A stretch of 64,000 nucleotides of DNA from Bacteriovorax sp. (GTDB lineage: Bacteria > Bdellovibrionota > Bacteriovoracia > Bacteriovoracales > Bacteriovoracaceae). The stretch spans positions 1-64,000 of the forward strand of contig JAGOVS010000002.1 of the NCBI GenBank assembly GCA_018060625.1, read 5' to 3'. A program made the position numbers and the translations under genes. Position 1 is the stretch's first letter, and every line of letters starts with the position of its first letter. Under the pieces are notes generated by a model, which was given only the letters and a program-made list of their open reading frames with translations, did no database searches and was not told where the DNA came from. Positions 46,595-55,289 of this stretch are shown in pieces.

Positions 46595-48955
46595 TTAAAC
46601 CGAAACCTCTTGACTTGGAGAGATGACCTGAAGATGCTCTGGAGTTAATCCTGAGAGCACGCACATCTCATCCACCCTCTTCATTTCTGACTTTAAGTTG
46701 GCAACTAAGGATTTTAAAACATTCACAAGTTCATCGTCTTTCGAATGAGCATTTTGAGAGATCTTAGCTGCTGAAAACTGTGCATTGTCTAAATTATTTC
46801 TAATACTCTCAAGTCTTGATTTAATCAAGTCCAAGTCAATCTTCTCTCTAGACTCAACCATCATATCTAATTTTGTCACAGTTACATCAAGCATCGTTAC
46901 GACTTGATTGAAACCATTGAGGACTTTTTCAAATCCTCGCATTTCAAGTTTTATTTTACCAAGAAATTGATCGATGCGCTGAGTATCCCCCTCTTGATTT
47001 TGGAAAATAAGCAATTGATCAAGAACTTGAGTAATTCGGGACTTAAATTCATCAACATTTCCTTTCAATTCCTTAAATTCCGATTTTAGACCTGTAATTG
47101 TTTTTAAGGATCTTAAATATTCGTCTACGGTCTTATCTGCCTTCTCAGCACTGGAGAGAATCTTATTTTGGTCTTTATAAAAATCTTTTGAACAATTAAG
47201 AGTGAAGCGAAACTGCTCTTCTAATTGATCTCGAGCATCCAGAACGCCACTCACTGTCGCTTTGAATTGATTAAATTTATTCATTGATGCTCTTTGGGTT
47301 TCAAAAGAGCTGACCAGCGATTTTCTTATTTCCGTAACAGTATTTCGCTGTTCTGACAATGCATTTTCTAATCTCTCAATTTCCCCAGTTAAGTCATCTT
47401 GTATGGCCTCATGCTTTTCTACGTATTGAGAAAATTTTGTATAAAGCTCTCCGCCCCCTGCCTCTTCAATTTTTTCCCGGAGATGGGTCTTGAGATCGTT
47501 TGTCATTGATTCATTATAATAAGCATGGACCACCTCAATCATCGGGGCAGTAATGGCCGATTTTTGATTATTTAATCTTTCTTCAACCTGAGTCATTGGG
47601 TAGAAAATAATCATTATTCGTTTTTGACCAGAATACTCTGCCGGTGACACATGCATTTCATAAGGTATGGCCTTGGCAATTCCAGCTGTCTTTACTTGAA
47701 TTTTATAAACCCCTGAAGTACTCATCCGAAGAGCGCTAAGAATTGAGCTATTATCTTCAAGATTGGTAAATCGTTGTAGAAAATCCCATGTTAAAGAATC
47801 ACCACCATCCTCATTGAAATTTTGAAGTTTCCATTCTTCATAAAAATGGGAATTACCCCAAATTAAATTTAAATTGGAATCCAACAAAATAGAAGCAAAT
47901 GGCATGGCCTCTTGAAAGACCGACCCATAAGTTATTCTTTTATGGACATAATCGCGATATTTTTCTAACTCCGCAGTGAATTCATGGGAAAATTGATCCA
48001 TATTTTTTGGATCAACAGGAAGAAGACCTTCCTTGATTGTATCGAGAATTAATTTTTCTGTTTTTAATGATCCGCGCTTTGCTGAGTAGTTATAAATGAC
48101 AAAACCCAGAATAATGGAGGCAGAAAAGCTTGCGAAGATAATGATAAAAGAATAAAGAATTGTCTGTGAGCTTTTTTCAAACTGTATTTTCTTTAATGCG
48201 ATTTCAGGCTCAACGAATTTAAACCATTCCTGGTAATCATTTCCAAAATCCTTATAGACCCTGTTAAATTTTTTATGGTCTTCGACATAATTTTCTAAAA
48301 GTCCAGCCTCTAATTTAATGGTCTTAATTCTATTGATGATGGCCATTTTAATATCGGTCTGCAAACCAGAGGATTCAGTAAAATTTGTCATCGCTTCAAT
48401 ATCATTATTTATTGATTGGGTTAAATTTTGAGTTTTTTCAAAATTGTATAACCCTCCCTGCATCAATCGTCCGGGAGAAGTTTTTATTCTTAAATTCATC
48501 GCCATCTTTGTTAAAGTAGGCCATTTTTTTTCAGTGACAAAATTTTCAAAAGTTGTCACTTTAGAAGAGATACTATTTAAAATCGTCGTCAATTCTGGGG
48601 CCGATTGAAAATTATTTAACTCAACTTTAATTTTGCTTGTATTTGATTCAAAAGTCGTCAAACTCCCTGTTGGCTTTATAGATTTTAAATCCTGAATATC
48701 CTGCTCAAGCCGTTTAAAAATGCGATTGGCATCTTTAATTCGATCACCATCAACAAATTTTTTAATTTCATCAAGATCATTGCGCTCCTTAACTGCTCGA
48801 ACCTTACTTGTCCCATCATAAAGATTGCTCACATATTCAATATTGAGAAGTCCAGAACTCCAATAAAACTTTGCTCCGTAGACAAATAGGCCAGTCATTG
48901 CCATCAAAACAAAGACGTAATAAAAATGCACAACTCGTCCTAGAGTAAATCGCAT
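46595..48955 (-). CDS. membrane sensor with PAS-like domain and coiled coil, no output domain
   Basis: A 786-residue protein. TM1 at about 10-30; a 230-residue all-helical periplasmic domain (31-264); TM2 at about 265-290; a cytoplasmic linker; a PAS-like domain at about 340-455 (FASILLDSNLNLIWGN, GVYKIQVKTAG, RIMIIFYPMT); then about 300 residues of helix and coiled coil. The layout is that of a sensor kinase or chemoreceptor, but there is no H-box, ATPase domain, GGDEF, or the conserved chemoreceptor hairpin tip. It follows fliA and an orphan gene at the end of the flagellar operon, so a role in motility or surface sensing is likely but unproven. Confidence 0.7.
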   Translation of the reverse strand: MRFTLGRVVHFYYVFVLMAMTGLFVYGAKFYWSSGLLNIEYVSNLYDGTSKVRAVKERNDLDEIKKFVDGDRIKDANRIFKRLEQDIQDLKSIKPTGSLTTFESNTSKIKVELNNFQSAPELTTILNSISSKVTTFENFVTEKKWPTLTKMAMNLRIKTSPGRLMQGGLYNFEKTQNLTQSINNDIEAMTNFTESSGLQTDIKMAIINRIKTIKLEAGLLENYVEDHKKFNRVYKDFGNDYQEWFKFVEPEIALKKIQFEKSSQTILYSFIIIFASFSASIILGFVIYNYSAKRGSLKTEKLILDTIKEGLLPVDPKNMDQFSHEFTAELEKYRDYVHKRITYGSVFQEAMPFASILLDSNLNLIWGNSHFYEEWKLQNFNEDGGDSLTWDFLQRFTNLEDNSSILSALRMSTSGVYKIQVKTAGIAKAIPYEMHVSPAEYSGQKRIMIIFYPMTQVEERLNNQKSAITAPMIEVVHAYYNESMTNDLKTHLREKIEEAGGGELYTKFSQYVEKHEAIQDDLTGEIERLENALSEQRNTVTEIRKSLVSSFETQRASMNKFNQFKATVSGVLDARDQLEEQFRFTLNCSKDFYKDQNKILSSAEKADKTVDEYLRSLKTITGLKSEFKELKGNVDEFKSRITQVLDQLLIFQNQEGDTQRIDQFLGKIKLEMRGFEKVLNGFNQVVTMLDVTVTKLDMMVESREKIDLDLIKSRLESIRNNLDNAQFSAAKISQNAHSKDDELVNVLKSLVANLKSEMKRVDEMCVLSGLTPEHLQVISPSQEVSV

Positions 48956-48979: not shown

Positions 48980-49942
48980 TTACTGATTGAATAGAGAGAA
49001 AAAATCGATCGTTCGATAATATGTAGAAACATCCTGTTCCCTCATTTGTTCACTATCATTGGTGCTTGCTAGACTTCGTGAATAAGCCTCAGTTGCAAGA
49101 TAACCCTTCATAGGTAGTATGATGGAAACTGGACGAAATAAAAAGGGAAAGTGTAAAATTTCTTTATTGGCCGATTCCAGACGAGTCAGATCTGGTATTC
49201 CAAAAATGTGCTTAACCGAAAGATCACTTCCGACTTCAATAACGTTGTGTTCACCCACCGATTTAACATTCTCCAAGAGAGAACGGTAATGACAAAAGAT
49301 ATTGGAGAATCCTACGAAATAGTTTTCTTTGCTTCCCACCTTAAAGCTCACTTTATAGACGAGCGAATCGTCATGGGAAATATCAACTTTTAAATCCAAC
49401 TTAAATAGTCCGGGTTTAGCCGTTTTTTCTAAGTTAAACGTCAACAAGACTTTTTGTCGCAAAAGTTTTCTTGTCACAACGTAAATGAATTTTCGATTCA
49501 TCTGAAGATGTCCATCCTCTAAGATCATACCCGAAACAAGTAACCGATTATCATCCAGTTTAGCATTAATTTGCCCATGATAATTAAAAAGTGAAACGAC
49601 AGACAGTACCTCTGGAATAATTTCTAAAATGAGATTCCATTTTTTAAGATCAATCTTAGAAGTTTCTTTTTGGTATTGAAAAAACTTAAACTTGGACTTG
49701 TTACTAAAAAATTCAGTAAAAATTGATTCGAACTTTTCATCTAAGACGCGAGAGACGAGATCAAAATGGGCCACTTGTCCCAAGGCCGTAGCATCGGCCT
49801 TTCTCTTCATCTCCGATAAATGGAAATAGGCCCTACCTATCAAAGGCGAAAGTGAAAACTCTGAGAGCAATTGAATATCCTCAAGGGTGCTTAGCCCTAA
49901 TTCATAGTCATCTTGCAAAGTTTTTTGCATTCGCTTTTCCAT
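48980..49942 (-). CDS. hypothetical protein downstream of fliA
   Basis: A 320-residue cytoplasmic-looking protein with no signal peptide or membrane span. The N-terminal third is helical, and the middle and C-terminal parts are beta-rich (VLLTFNLEKTAKPGLFKLDLKVD, LVYKVSFKVGSKENYFVGF). It starts 3 bases after fliA and ends 24 bases before the membrane sensor gene, so all three are one transcript. I recognise no motif. Its fixed place suggests a regulator or partner in flagellar gene control. Confidence 0.65.
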   Translation of the reverse strand: MEKRMQKTLQDDYELGLSTLEDIQLLSEFSLSPLIGRAYFHLSEMKRKADATALGQVAHFDLVSRVLDEKFESIFTEFFSNKSKFKFFQYQKETSKIDLKKWNLILEIIPEVLSVVSLFNYHGQINAKLDDNRLLVSGMILEDGHLQMNRKFIYVVTRKLLRQKVLLTFNLEKTAKPGLFKLDLKVDISHDDSLVYKVSFKVGSKENYFVGFSNIFCHYRSLLENVKSVGEHNVIEVGSDLSVKHIFGIPDLTRLESANKEILHFPFLFRPVSIILPMKGYLATEAYSRSLASTNDSEQMREQDVSTYYRTIDFFSLFNQ

Positions 49943-49944
49943 TT

Positions 49945-50730
49945 TTAACTAGCTAAATCCTCAACTGATTCAAAGATGGTTCTCAACTTTGATCTCAATT
50001 TCAAAATGGCCTGTGTGTGTAACTGGGAAACTCTTGACTCTGTCACATCCAAAACCTGACCAATTTCTTTAAGGTTCAAGTCTTCATAGTAATAAAGCGA
50101 AAGAACTAGTCTTTGCTTCTCTGGCAAAGTCATAATCCCTTCTTTTATTTTATCCCGTGAATCTTTCTGACTAACAGTTGTGTATGGATTTAAGGCCCTG
50201 TGATCTTCCATAACTTCAGAAATGAGTTTTTTGTCACCCTTGTTAAAACTCGCCGAATCATCAATATTGAGGAGAGAAATTGACTTTGCCTTATTTAGCA
50301 GATCATGAAATTCCTCTTGATTCATGCCAAGTTCAGCACACATTTCTTCATCAGTGGCAGGACGCCCCAACCCAGCTTCCAGTTTTGAATAGGCCCTCTC
50401 CACTGTCTTGGCTTTTTCTCGTATTGATCGTGGAACCCAATCCTGTGCGCGTAATTCATCGAGGATGGCCCCTCGAATCCTAAATTCCGCGTAAGTCTTA
50501 AATTTATTATCTCGATTAGGATCAAATTTTTCAATTGCATCCATCAATCCGATAACCCCACAAGAAATGAGATCATCTAATTCAATATTAGAAGGAAGTC
50601 TTGAAGCAATTTTCTGAGCTATGTATTTTACAAGTGGAGCATATTCAATAATAATTTCGTCTTTAATTTTTGGTTCTACTGTAGAACGGTAATCTTTTAA
50701 ATTCTTTAATTTTTTTGATAGAGTCGACAT
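49945..50730 (-). CDS. fliA: flagellar RNA polymerase sigma factor FliA/WhiG type
   Basis: A 261-residue sigma-28 family factor. Region 2 includes LVKYIAQKIASRLPSNIELDDLISCGVIGLMDAIEKFDP and FKTYAEFRIRGAILDELRAQDWVPRSIR, region 3 LGRPATDEEMCAELGM and region 4 MTLPEKQRLVLSLYYYEDLNLKEIG with a helix-turn-helix. It directs late flagellar and chemotaxis genes. FlgM, the usual anti-sigma factor, is not in the window. Confidence 0.94.
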   Translation of the reverse strand: MSTLSKKLKNLKDYRSTVEPKIKDEIIIEYAPLVKYIAQKIASRLPSNIELDDLISCGVIGLMDAIEKFDPNRDNKFKTYAEFRIRGAILDELRAQDWVPRSIREKAKTVERAYSKLEAGLGRPATDEEMCAELGMNQEEFHDLLNKAKSISLLNIDDSASFNKGDKKLISEVMEDHRALNPYTTVSQKDSRDKIKEGIMTLPEKQRLVLSLYYYEDLNLKEIGQVLDVTESRVSQLHTQAILKLRSKLRTIFESVEDLAS

Positions 50731-50745: not shown

Positions 50746-51633
50746 TTAAAATTGTGTACGAACATCATGTTCGAGGCTCTGTGAGTTTTTGGAAGAGAGG
50801 TCAAAATCCCTCCCAAGAGCTGCGCCCTCTATCTCATCGGTAAATTTCTTTACAATTTTCACAAAATTTTTATGCAGGGAAGAATTTTCCTGTTCCAATA
50901 AAACTGAATCAAATTGATCGACGGGAATCTCCTCATTTTTAATTCCACCAAGAATATGAAGTCTACACTTCAGGAATGTTTCAACCGTTTCACTCAAGGT
51001 TTTAACCATTCTTTGGTACTGAGGCTCAGATGAGACCTTGTTAATGAGTAAATGATTATCATTCACTCCAAATTCCTTATTGAGAATCTTAATAAGCGAA
51101 TAGGAGTCAGTAACTGACGATTTATCAGGCGTTACAACGACAAAGCGGTAATCACTATAAGCGTTGAGAGTAAGTGTTTCTTTAGTGATGCCTGCGGGGC
51201 AATCTAGAATTATATAATCGTAATCCCTTTCATGATTCACCAGAATATCAATGATGATTCGATCAACTTCTAAATTCTTATTAAATAAGTCAATACTCCC
51301 ATTGCACCCAGAGAGAAGATGAAGATTACCATCTTTATGAAGACAATCATCAAAGTCTCTTTGTGCTGATATGAGCTCGTAAAAATAATTATTGATTGGA
51401 AGACCAAGCTTAACGACAGTATTGGACAAATTTGTATCACAATCAAGTAATAAGACTTTATAACCTGAACTGGCCATCAGGCGGGCCATTTTCACAGCGA
51501 CAGAGGTTTTTCCGACTCCCCCCTTTCCAGCAGTCACAGATATTGTTTTTGCCTTAAGACCTGTTTTTTTAGACTGGTACTTATTCTGAGAAACTAGCCA
51601 ATCACTTGGATTGGATTTTTTTAAACTAAGCAT
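50746..51633 (-). CDS. flhG: flagellar number regulator FlhG (MinD-like ATPase)
   Basis: A 295-residue MinD/ParA-type ATPase. The deviant Walker A TAGKGGVGKTSVAV is intact near residues 34-47, with Walker A' VLLLDCDTNLSN and Walker B DYIILDCPAG. The N-terminus (SLKKSNPSDWLVSQNK) could carry the FlhF-stimulating segment (DQA-x-x-LR) seen in other FlhG, but that motif is not clear here. FlhG limits flagellar number together with FlhF, which is encoded just upstream and is degenerate in this organism. Confidence 0.93.
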   Translation of the reverse strand: MLSLKKSNPSDWLVSQNKYQSKKTGLKAKTISVTAGKGGVGKTSVAVKMARLMASSGYKVLLLDCDTNLSNTVVKLGLPINNYFYELISAQRDFDDCLHKDGNLHLLSGCNGSIDLFNKNLEVDRIIIDILVNHERDYDYIILDCPAGITKETLTLNAYSDYRFVVVTPDKSSVTDSYSLIKILNKEFGVNDNHLLINKVSSEPQYQRMVKTLSETVETFLKCRLHILGGIKNEEIPVDQFDSVLLEQENSSLHKNFVKIVKKFTDEIEGAALGRDFDLSSKNSQSLEHDVRTQF

Positions 51634-51710: not shown

Positions 51711-53207
51711 TTACGAAAACTTAAATATGCCAGCTAAAATTCTTTCAGCTGTAGCAGCTTCTATGTCATCAGGAACAACCTCTCCTGTGCCAAAAAACTT
51801 ATAAGGAAGATCTTTAATGTCTTGAGTGATATTAAAGAGTGATCCAAAATTTAAACAAGCATCCAAATGAGACACTACAACTCCATCCGAAAGACTTCGA
51901 TAAGTTCCAAGAACCTTTCTATTGTATAATTCAGAATGAATTGCCGAAAGAGTGATCAATACTTCCACTTTTGAAAAGGCCCTTCTTAGACCATCAATAA
52001 ATTTTTTCGTATCGTTATTTTCAGTATCGTTACATTTGTAATCAATAAAAACACTCTTTCCATCTTCAATCGCCTTGCGGCACTCTGAGACAATTTCTGC
52101 AATACTAGTGGCCTTAATGACGTTCATTCCAAAAATTTTCTCTGCAAAACTTGCTTTTGGTTCATTAATCGTTGTTATATTCTTAATAATCACTGATTCT
52201 TTTTTCAATGTTCCAATTTTTTGAACCATTGAACTTTGCCCACAAGAAACTTCAGAAAGGAAAACAGTGATCACAGGATTTTTCTGAGTATTCCCCGAAG
52301 AAAAAAGCGGCATTGCGGTTGAGACAGTTGCCACCATTTCCCTTAGGGCAAATTCAAAAACAACATCTGCATTTTCAACATCAGTTTCTGTCAATTCAAA
52401 TAATCCTTTTTTAATAAGGTGCTGAATATAACTTTCATTAATATCGAGACTTCTCAATGTCGTTCGCAACTGATAAATGCCAATGGGCTCTTTTTTATGT
52501 ATGCGCTCAAAGTTGCGAGTTAATTCAAATAATTTTTTTTCTATTTCATCGATTTTATTTTTTTGTTTTTCATACATATCCTCCCCCACCAAACGTGTCC
52601 CTTGGGAATTAATGGACTGCTGGCCTTGGGAAAATGAGGAGGAAGAATTCTTTTCTAATTTTTGCTCTGGTCTTGATTCCATTCTCACTTCCCCCCTTGG
52701 GGCCTGAGTGATCGGCCGACTTGCCTCAACTTCATCATCAAAATTAAAATCCATTGATGTTCGGCCATGACGGTCTTCTTTTTCTCCAAGGCTCAAAAAG
52801 TCATCCAGACCTTCACGAATTCCTGATTTGATTTGTGAAGCTATTCCTTTTGTGGAATTGACTGATCGATTAAGACCAGCGTTACCATATCCGCTGTTGA
52901 CTCTAGTAGAAGTTGATGACTTTTCTCTTGAATATTCATGTTGATCTATCATATTGGCTATATATCCTGCACTTCCATTATAAAATTCTTCTTTTTGGTT
53001 CTCATTAAGAACAGTGTCCACTGAAGCTTTTCTGACATAGTTTTTTTCAGAAATGGCCGCGGTGATTTCAATTTTCTTTTTTTTGAATGCGCCTTTTAAT
53101 CCTTTATTGGTTATTGTTTTCAAAATAACCGCATCCGGACCCAGTTCGCGCTTGATGTCTTTTAGGGCTTCTTCAATTGTGTCTGCTTCAAATTTTCTAA
53201 CGTACAT
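51711..53207 (-). CDS. flhF: FlhF-like protein with degenerate GTPase domain
   Basis: A 498-residue protein. Residues 1-60 match the FlhF N-terminus (KFEADTIEEALKDIKRELGPDAVILKT), followed by a long Ser/Asn/Gln-rich linker (about 75-210), an N-domain-like helical part and a G-like domain. The G1 loop, normally G-x4-GKT, reads LSEVSCGQSS (about 317-326), the G3 D-T-A-G is replaced by IDYKCND, and G4 T-K-L-D by SHLD. The final FFGTGEVVPDD matches the FlhF G5 end. GTP binding is therefore unlikely, although order in the operon (flhA-flhF-flhG) and both ends identify it as FlhF. The frame is continuous, so this is not a sequencing slip. Confidence 0.88.
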   Translation of the reverse strand: MYVRKFEADTIEEALKDIKRELGPDAVILKTITNKGLKGAFKKKKIEITAAISEKNYVRKASVDTVLNENQKEEFYNGSAGYIANMIDQHEYSREKSSTSTRVNSGYGNAGLNRSVNSTKGIASQIKSGIREGLDDFLSLGEKEDRHGRTSMDFNFDDEVEASRPITQAPRGEVRMESRPEQKLEKNSSSSFSQGQQSINSQGTRLVGEDMYEKQKNKIDEIEKKLFELTRNFERIHKKEPIGIYQLRTTLRSLDINESYIQHLIKKGLFELTETDVENADVVFEFALREMVATVSTAMPLFSSGNTQKNPVITVFLSEVSCGQSSMVQKIGTLKKESVIIKNITTINEPKASFAEKIFGMNVIKATSIAEIVSECRKAIEDGKSVFIDYKCNDTENNDTKKFIDGLRRAFSKVEVLITLSAIHSELYNRKVLGTYRSLSDGVVVSHLDACLNFGSLFNITQDIKDLPYKFFGTGEVVPDDIEAATAERILAGIFKFS

Positions 53208-53210
53208 TTA

Positions 53211-55289
53211 TTACAACCTCACCGTTCCTAGTGATCTGATATTAGCATCAGGGCTTAATTCATTGTGGCTTACTACCACAAGGTTGGGGATAAACTTTTC
53301 TGTTAAACGCTTAAAGTGAGAGCGAATAACCGGTGAACAGAGCACAACCATCTTTTCACCCATGCTTGTCGCTTCTTCAATTTTTTCATTGAGTGAAGCC
53401 AGGATGATCTGAGTGACTTTGGGATCCAAGGATAGCTGTTGACCTTGATCGGTTTGAATTATATTTTGAGCTATAGACTCTTCAATATTCCGATCTAAAG
53501 TAAACAGTGGAATATCTCCTTGATCACTTTTTATCTTCTCAGTTATGGTTCTAAACAGGGCTTGACGAGAAAATTCAGTCAACGCCTCTGTGTCTTTCAT
53601 TGTAGGTCCATACTCAGATAATGTCTCTAAAATTGTGCGTAGATCACGAACAGAAACTCCTTCTCTCAGTAAATTTTTCATGACCTTCAAGACTATTCCC
53701 AGATTTAATATATCAGGAATTAAATCATTAACCAATTTCGGGTTTGTCTCTTTAAAGTTATCCACAACCCGGACAAGTTCTTGGCGACCAAAAAGTTCAT
53801 GGAGATTAGATTTTAGAATTTCTGTTAAATGAGTTGCCACGATAGTTGAGCAGTCAACTACGGTATATCCATTGTATTGAGCATCTTCTTTCTGATCCTC
53901 AGAAATCCAGACGGCCCTTAAACCAAAAACGGGCTCAGTCGTTTCGACACCATCCATTTTTTCAATGACAGTCCCAGGATCCATGGCCAAAAAATAGTCT
54001 GACATCAATTCACCTTTGGCGACTTGTATCCCTTTAATTTTTACAGAATAACCGCCGGGCTTTAGTTCCAGGTTGTCTTTAATTTTAACGGAGGGAATAA
54101 TCACACCCCAATCAAGTGCAAAAATTTTCCTCATGTGGGTGATGCGCTCAAGTAGATCCCCATTTTGCTCGGTATCGACTAAGTGAACCAGTCCATAACC
54201 AACTTCCAATTCAACGAGCTCCATATTGAGAAGCTCTTCCAGATTTTGAGGATTAGCTTTTTTAGTCACTTCTACTGCTTTTTGCTTCTCTACAAGTTCT
54301 TCATTTGTATTACTTTGCTCAATTTTGAAAGCGATAAAACCCAAAGCTCCTCCCATGGCAAAAAAGGGAAATTTAGGAAGACCAGGAATCAACCCAAATA
54401 TGACTAATACCGCGCCTGAGATATATATGGCCTTAGGGTGAACTTTAAATTGTTTCTGAACTTGAGTCCCAATATTGTCATCATTGGTATTTCTTGTGAC
54501 GAGAATACCTGCGGCCGTAGAAATGATAAGGGCAGGAATTTGAGTGACGAGACCATCACCAACAGTTAGAAGGGTAAACGTTTCTGCGGCCTTTGCGACA
54601 TCCATCCCATTTTGAGTAACTCCAATGAGAATACCACCAATAATGTTAATTGCGGTGATCAAGATCCCGGCGATTGCATCTCCGCGAACAAACTTTGAAG
54701 CACCATCCATTGACCCGTAAAAATCAGCCTCTTCAGCGACTTCTTTACGTCTTCTTTTGGCCTCAACATCGTTAATTAATCCGGCGTTTAAATCAGCATC
54801 AATGGCCATTTGCTTACCAGGCATTGCATCCAAGGTAAATCTGGCAGCAACTTCAGCAACTCGGCCCGCACCTTTTGTAACAACCATAAAGTTGATGATG
54901 ACTAAGATAATAAAGATAACAATTCCTACGATGAAATTACCTTGAACGACGAATTCACCAAATGACTTAATGATTTCTCCCGCGGCCGCTGTTCCATCAG
55001 CAGCTCCATGGATAAGAATATTTCTGGTTGAAGCAACGTTCAGGGCCAATCTAAAAAGAGTTGAGATAAGTAGCACAGAAGGAAAAGTTGAAAAATCTAA
55101 TGGCTTTTTAGTATAAAGAGAAACAAGCATGATCATGACTGCAAAAGCGAGGGAGAGGGCAAGTAATAAATCTAAAAGAAGAGGAGGGATTGGAACAATC
55201 ATAACGACGAGAATCAGTAAAATCCCAATGGCCGCCAGAACATCTGGGCCTTGAGTAAAGATTTTCATTTTCTTAAACATGTCATTCAT
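53211..55289 (-). CDS. flhA: flagellar export gate protein FlhA
   Basis: A 692-residue protein of usual length. It has eight N-terminal membrane spans with PIPPLLLDLLLALSLAFAVMIMLV and the FHIPEP-region DFSTFPSVLLISTLFRLALNVASTR, the loop DAMPGKQMAIDADLNAGLI, then the cytoplasmic ring domain. FlhA forms the nonameric export gate driven by proton motive force. The gene directly precedes flhF with 3 bases between them. Confidence 0.97.
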   Translation of the reverse strand: MNDMFKKMKIFTQGPDVLAAIGILLILVVMIVPIPPLLLDLLLALSLAFAVMIMLVSLYTKKPLDFSTFPSVLLISTLFRLALNVASTRNILIHGAADGTAAAGEIIKSFGEFVVQGNFIVGIVIFIILVIINFMVVTKGAGRVAEVAARFTLDAMPGKQMAIDADLNAGLINDVEAKRRRKEVAEEADFYGSMDGASKFVRGDAIAGILITAINIIGGILIGVTQNGMDVAKAAETFTLLTVGDGLVTQIPALIISTAAGILVTRNTNDDNIGTQVQKQFKVHPKAIYISGAVLVIFGLIPGLPKFPFFAMGGALGFIAFKIEQSNTNEELVEKQKAVEVTKKANPQNLEELLNMELVELEVGYGLVHLVDTEQNGDLLERITHMRKIFALDWGVIIPSVKIKDNLELKPGGYSVKIKGIQVAKGELMSDYFLAMDPGTVIEKMDGVETTEPVFGLRAVWISEDQKEDAQYNGYTVVDCSTIVATHLTEILKSNLHELFGRQELVRVVDNFKETNPKLVNDLIPDILNLGIVLKVMKNLLREGVSVRDLRTILETLSEYGPTMKDTEALTEFSRQALFRTITEKIKSDQGDIPLFTLDRNIEESIAQNIIQTDQGQQLSLDPKVTQIILASLNEKIEEATSMGEKMVVLCSPVIRSHFKRLTEKFIPNLVVVSHNELSPDANIRSLGTVRL

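Follow-up and report, generated by a model that had tools for sequence, protein, structure and literature searches.

Bacteriovoracaceae, a family of predatory bacteria whose described members have one polar flagellum each (Bacteriovorax sp. As-1, PMC12642874; Halobacteriovorax marinus BE01, PMC5760749), appear to place this flagellum without the GTPase switch used elsewhere. The open reading frame at 51711-53207 of the window, the 64,000-nucleotide stretch of Bacteriovorax sp. DNA analysed here, is the FlhF orthologue of the family. Its GTPase motifs have been lost and, judging from the sequences compared, this loss has become fixed across the family and is not confined to one odd genome. We consider it fairly probable (about 0.68, a figure that covers the whole explanation including the part given to FlhG) that FlhF acts here as a pseudo-GTPase tether, independent of nucleotide or at least of its hydrolysis.

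The gene comprises 498 codons on the minus strand, with an ATG start and an unbroken frame, and lies in the order flhA-flhF-flhG-sigma, as befits a member of the FlhF orthologous group; flhG is adjacent to flhF in about 90 Bacteriovoracaceae loci. The FlhF model TIGR03499 matches residues 1-292 (E 1.7e-17), with a score of 64.4 that is below the curated cut-off (174.15) of this equivalog, 'flagellar biosynthesis GTPase FlhF', and PF00448 (SRP54) matches residues 363-495 only (score 27, gathering cut-off 22.7). When aligned with hhalign, the Bacteriovoracaceae proteins and the canonical FlhFs of the same phylum matched over their full length (E 2.3e-39). An initial annotation, made from the DNA letters alone, had described a continuous frame in which the N-terminal domain, the G5-like end and the gene order were kept, and these matches bear it out. 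A sequence search of solved structures with FlhF gave no useful match. Its AlphaFold2 model (Table 1), in which pLDDT exceeds 90 across most of the G domain, has a beta-strand at residues 313-318, a loop and a helix at 324-334, the layout expected for a P-loop. The best VIA-align match of the model (residues 241-496) was Bacillus subtilis FlhF:GTP (2px3, Z 23.1), with which FtsY ties within 1 Z, and the best Foldseek match was FlhF with GDP (8r9r). According to the model, the SRP-type NG fold is retained. Downstream of flhF-flhG-sigma, also on the minus strand, we observed a 786-aa protein (46595-48955) with no clear Pfam family and, judged by eye, membrane and coiled-coil character, and between it and the sigma factor a 320-aa protein (48980-49942) with zero Pfam matches.

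Table 1. Features of FlhF, FlhG and their neighbourhood; positions refer to the window except where a genome and contig or a locus is named.
Feature	Position	Strand	Observation
flhF, pseudo-GTPase type	51711..53207	minus	498 aa; AF2 mean pLDDT 79.2; VIA-align Z 23.1 to 2px3
FlhF N-terminal domain, residues 1-90, equivalent of FliG-interaction domain	52938..53207	minus	most conserved part, pN/pS 0.08; FliG role PMC11236974
FlhF linker motif YGNAGLNR, residues 107-114	52866..52889	minus	88/102 family members vs 0/60 others
FlhF linker motif LDDFL, residues 134-138	52794..52808	minus	LDxFL in 95/102 family members vs 0/60 others
FlhF N domain, about residues 241-305	52293..52487	minus	fold match starts at residue 241
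FlhF former P-loop (G1) SEVSCGQSS, residues 318-326	52230..52256	minus	placed by hhalign on GPTGVGKTT, E 2.3e-39; Q in 102/102
FlhF former G3 IDYKC, residues 388-392	52032..52046	minus	canonical DTAG; D389 kept
FlhF family-specific conserved segment SAIHSELYNRK, residues 421-431	51915..51947	minus	E426 in 100/102 and N429 in 100/102 family members
FlhF former G4 SHLD, residues 446-449	51861..51872	minus	canonical TKLD; D449 kept
FlhF G5-like end FFGTGEVVPDDIEA, residues 471-484, retained	51756..51797	minus	profile alignment and family alignment
flhA, upstream neighbour of flhF	53211..55289	minus	TIGR01398, 905 bits
flhG, MinD-like ATPase, intact Walker A	50746..51633	minus	295 aa; Foldseek top matches FleN 5j1j and FlhG 4rz3
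FlhG N-terminal helix SDWLVSQ, residues 10-16	51586..51606	minus	at the place of DQAxxLR in other FlhGs; W12 invariant in 59 aligned
FlhG Walker A GKGGVGKT, residues 36-43	51505..51528	minus	G36-G41 and K42 invariant, T43 at least 90%, in 59 family FlhGs
Sigma factor, FliA type	49945..50730	minus	sigma-70 regions 2, 3 and 4
Stand-alone FliG C-terminal domain proteins	G000:C162:23732-24046; G000:C124:1424-1744; G015:C1:207905-208225; G015:C1:2259927-2260244		
flhF loci of genus g55	L212 9543-10670; L213 9426-10478; L214	minus	

The profile alignment of the family against canonical FlhFs sets SEVSCGQSSMVQK on GPTGVGKTTTIAK. The P-loop of FlhF reads SEVSCGQSS as against GxxGxGKTT in other FlhFs, with Lys replaced by Gln at 324; DTAG of G3 has become DYKC and TKLD of G4 has become SHLD, neither conforming to the SRP-type G3/G4 pattern, although each Asp is kept. 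The earlier statement that all motifs were replaced was therefore accurate for the P-loop Lys, DTAG and TKLD and too strong for the P-loop Thr, which has changed conservatively to Ser (S325), and for D389 and D449. Neither a G....GK[ST] pattern nor a G4-like TKxD was found in the window FlhF. We then compared 102 distinct Bacteriovoracaceae FlhFs, taken from whole genomes and from records named Bacteriovorax, Halobacteriovorax or Bacteriovoracaceae, with 60 FlhFs from other families of the same phylum. The P-loop Lys position was occupied by Gln in 102/102 of the former and by Lys in 60/60 of the latter, a split that, for these sequences, is far beyond chance. G..G.GK[ST] was found in 0/102 family members, and the I-box (DTFR...Q; pattern D..[RK]..A..Q) in 0/102 vs 49/60 FlhFs from other families. 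The first P-loop Gly is Ser in 100/102, the G4 Lys survives in only 2/102, and the Thr-Ala-Gly of G3 is lost. Two further candidates were rejected: a P-loop in another segment of the protein, as there is no GK[ST] P-loop and both the profile and the AlphaFold2 fold comparison fix the altered segment at 318-326, the P-loop position, and recoding of the Lys codon, as Ffh, FtsY and FlhG of the same genome carry normal P-loops.

Other residues of the pocket are nearly constant. Among the 102 family FlhFs, G323 is kept in 101, Ser/Thr325 in 99, Lys330 in 102 and the G3 Asp389 in 101, while the G4 Asp449 is found in 101/101 sequences with a residue there and the G5 Gly475 in 100/100. A new family motif, S[ED]xxxGQ[ST], stands at the former P-loop, and E426, N429 and C451 are family-specific invariant residues. 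These alignments indicate that the GTP pocket has been rewritten in a fixed manner and not randomly eroded, and because the G1 Ser/Thr, the G3 and G4 Asp and the G5 Gly persist, it may bind nucleotide weakly, or another ligand.

In a quick maximum-likelihood tree, computed after removal of the motif columns, the Bacteriovoracaceae FlhFs form a single clade (SH-aLRT 99) whose stem measures 1.98 changes per column, and long branches meet at its sister-group position. This topology would fit one ancient change on the family stem, after which evolution slowed. Outside the family, the P-loop Lys is kept in every FlhF compared, including those in which G3 and G4 have eroded. As far as sequence tells, GTPase erosion in the phylum has intermediate forms, since Bdellovibrio-like families keep the P-loop, often without the G4 Lys; at loci L184, L187, L189-L191, L194, L197 and L205 the P-loop is kept and the G4 Lys gone (TGLD, TSLD, TFLD, TCLD).

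We propose that, on the family stem, FlhF lost the elements for GTP hydrolysis and became a pseudo-GTPase, whose conserved N-terminal domain would still bind FliG and whose NG fold would still dock to a polar landmark, so that flagellar assembly would begin at that pole. Shewanella FlhF attaches to FliG through its N-terminal domain and to HubP through its NG domain (PMC11236974), and the HubP contact is GTP-independent according to the citation of that work in PMC12713375. As Bacteriovoracaceae FlhF keeps both the N-terminal domain and the NG parts, a hydrolysis-free tether is the simplest account. Alanine mutants of Vibrio alginolyticus FlhF offer a further comparison: T306A and D439A abolish flagella, G299A, K305A and K437A reduce flagellation, as does alanine at G304 and D377, and G380A has little effect (PMC6092412). 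The equivalents of T306, D439, G304 and D377 are kept in the family and those of G299, K305, G380 and K437 are lost, so that, position by position in the alignment, the pattern largely follows the mutant effects. Localisation of FlhF in Pseudomonas aeruginosa and Vibrio is reported to need GTP binding but not hydrolysis, and stable FliG binding in P. aeruginosa is also reported to need GTP binding (PMC12713375); a nucleotide-free FlhF would thus have had to bypass this need, and Bacteriovoracaceae would mark the pole without GTP. We found no published biochemistry or localisation for any Bacteriovoracaceae FlhF. A scaffold-only FlhF, as put forward in the initial annotation, is still the best reading, having come through the searches for a P-loop elsewhere and for a second intact FlhF, although with several pocket residues kept it may still bind nucleotide.

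The near invariance of G323, S/T325, D389, D449 and G475 counts against a tether, in that it would also fit retained nucleotide binding. FlhF could still bind GTP or GDP with nil or very slow hydrolysis, as a ligand-binding, non-cycling switch in which the invariant Gln replaces Lys, and the kept Ser/Thr and Asp hold Mg and guanine. The conservation of these residues, together with that of the Gln, has the look of a maintained site, and in other species GTP binding without hydrolysis suffices for localisation (PMC12713375). We nevertheless regard this alternative as unlikely, given the joint loss of the P-loop Lys, the two early glycines, the I-box and the G4 Lys, and given that the P-loop Lys is never given up in other families, including where G3 and G4 have eroded.

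FlhG has also changed, at its N-terminus. Its ATPase motif is kept, as had been noted earlier: Walker A is intact and nearly invariant in the family (Table 1), and the protein combines a deviant Walker A with a MinD-like fold, its model matching FleN (5j1j) and FlhG (4rz3). The DQAxxLR N-terminal helix of FlhG stimulates the FlhF GTPase (PMC12826062). This motif was absent from the window FlhG and from every family locus with an adjacent FlhG; in other families, 14 of about 44 loci have it. In its place, 90 of about 92 family loci have a Trp-Leu motif (Trp-Arg in one case) at the N-terminus of FlhG. Under the tether model, FlhG would no longer trigger GTP hydrolysis via DQAxxLR and would probably set flagellar number by its own ATP cycle and the new N-terminal Trp-Leu helix. 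In Bdellovibrio-like families FlhG is also without DQAxxLR, so the absence of this motif does not by itself go with that of the P-loop; a joint loss of the two in one event was rejected as stated, as these families keep the P-loop without DQAxxLR.

Alternatively, the rewritten pocket might now serve a different ligand, for instance (p)ppGpp, a cyclic dinucleotide or a partner peptide, and FlhF would then sense a non-GTP signal. The S[ED]xxxGQ[ST] motif and the family-specific E426, N429 and C451 would suit such a site, and solved structures show Ffh and FtsY binding ppGpp and pppGpp, but the motif survives where FlhG is not beside flhF, so that the FlhG helix is not an obvious ligand, and we think this explanation quite improbable. 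The narrower idea that the new FlhG helix is an obligatory ligand of the remodelled pocket is weakened, since GQ is kept in genus g55 and in divergent members in which FlhG is not beside flhF or is without Trp-Leu.

Genus g55 (G096, G098 and G099; genomes 94-99% complete) retains FlhF without a flagellum. We found neither FlhA nor FliG_C in these genomes, and for FlhG just generic ParA/MinD matches, none of them beside flhF. The retained FlhF has the GQ[ST] motif and a FliG-binding-type N-terminal domain. Its pN/pS is 0.14 for the closest pair of copies and 0.43 when the third is compared, and in G099 the genes next to it encode a FliA-type sigma factor and a membrane protein that is a distant relative of the window ORF 46595-48955. 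This unexpected retention raises the tentative idea, which we would sooner doubt than accept, that FlhF is a nucleotide-free cell-pole organiser whose old pocket is a new conserved binding site and whose tie to the flagellum has gone; FlhF of g55 may reveal a function outside the flagellum. The initial annotation, right on the motif loss, had missed this non-flagellated genus, as well as the family-wide fixation, the kept pocket residues and the loss of DQAxxLR from FlhG.

Within the genus, the N-terminal domain has a pN/pS of 0.08, as against 0.16 in the N domain, 0.17 in the G domain and 0.47 in the linker; the former P-loop stands at 0.16 and G4-G5 at 0.08. These ratios are rough because synonymous sites are near saturation. 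flhF is under purifying selection, the former motifs included, and its frame is open in >100 genomes. Nine tested family genomes without flhF were also without flhA, and in a tenth, G012, flhA is cut off near the expected place of flhF. Besides the normal FliG, genomes G000 and G015 each encode several small proteins (about 144-153 aa) that consist of the FliG C-terminal domain on its own (Table 1). That flhF is a decaying, non-functional gene, as the absence of several textbook motifs might suggest, is scarcely credible in the face of these open frames and of selection on the former motifs themselves, and a pseudogene was rejected.

A second, intact FlhF had been named as an observation that would overturn the earlier proposal. 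None was found in the window's assembly (90.8% complete, 296 contigs), where SRP54-type matches numbered three, FtsY, Ffh and this FlhF; apart from this FlhF, the SRP GTPases of the assembly are FtsY and Ffh alone, both with normal P-loops, so that it contains no further, intact FlhF. A canonical FlhF hidden in the missing 9% of the assembly has a negligible probability, as in the phylum search no family genome had a TIGR03499 match at E 1e-25 or better and in the relatives search none scored above the family cut-off, including the nearly closed genomes G015 (2 contigs) and G003 (6 contigs).

Species differ in whether their FlhF requires GTP binding, hydrolysis or neither, and the evidence rests on point mutants. 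In Bacteriovoracaceae, which include described polar flagellates, the GTPase machinery appears to have been removed naturally and the FlhG activator helix changed too, so that the question becomes testable without mutants that precipitate, and the family offers an SRP-family pseudo-GTPase. No mention of FlhF together with Bacteriovorax was found in the open-licence literature, and neither Bdellovibrio nor Bacteriovorax features in a review of how FlhF and FlhG evolved (PMC12826062). With canonical FlhF, an SRP-type GTPase (B. subtilis 2px0/2px3; S. putrefaciens 8r9r), the Bacteriovoracaceae protein shares the N-terminal domain, the NG fold (Z about 23), the gene order with flhA and flhG, the G5-like end and the G3/G4 Asp, but differs in the P-loop Lys-to-Gln change, the missing I-box, the degenerate DTAG and TKLD and the family-specific linker motifs. 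Its FlhG shares with FlhG/FleN proteins that carry DQAxxLR the MinD-like fold (5j1j, 4rz3), the intact Walker A and a gene next to flhF, whereas its N-terminal helix is of the Trp-Leu type, with a Trp invariant in the 59 aligned. Bdellovibrio-like FlhFs (f6, f11, f18, f21-f28) have in common with the family a frequent loss of the G4 Lys and an FlhG without DQAxxLR, but always keep the P-loop GK[ST] and mostly the I-box. Several of the positions lost in Bacteriovoracaceae partly tolerate alanine in V. alginolyticus FlhF (PMC6092412), whereas the changes described here are natural, fixed in the family, made all at once and to Gln, not Ala. Pseudo-GTPases such as those of p190RhoGAP likewise have a GTPase fold without nucleotide-cycle motifs, in an unrelated family and with an unrelated function; Bacteriovoracaceae FlhF would be an SRP-type (SIMIBI) example.
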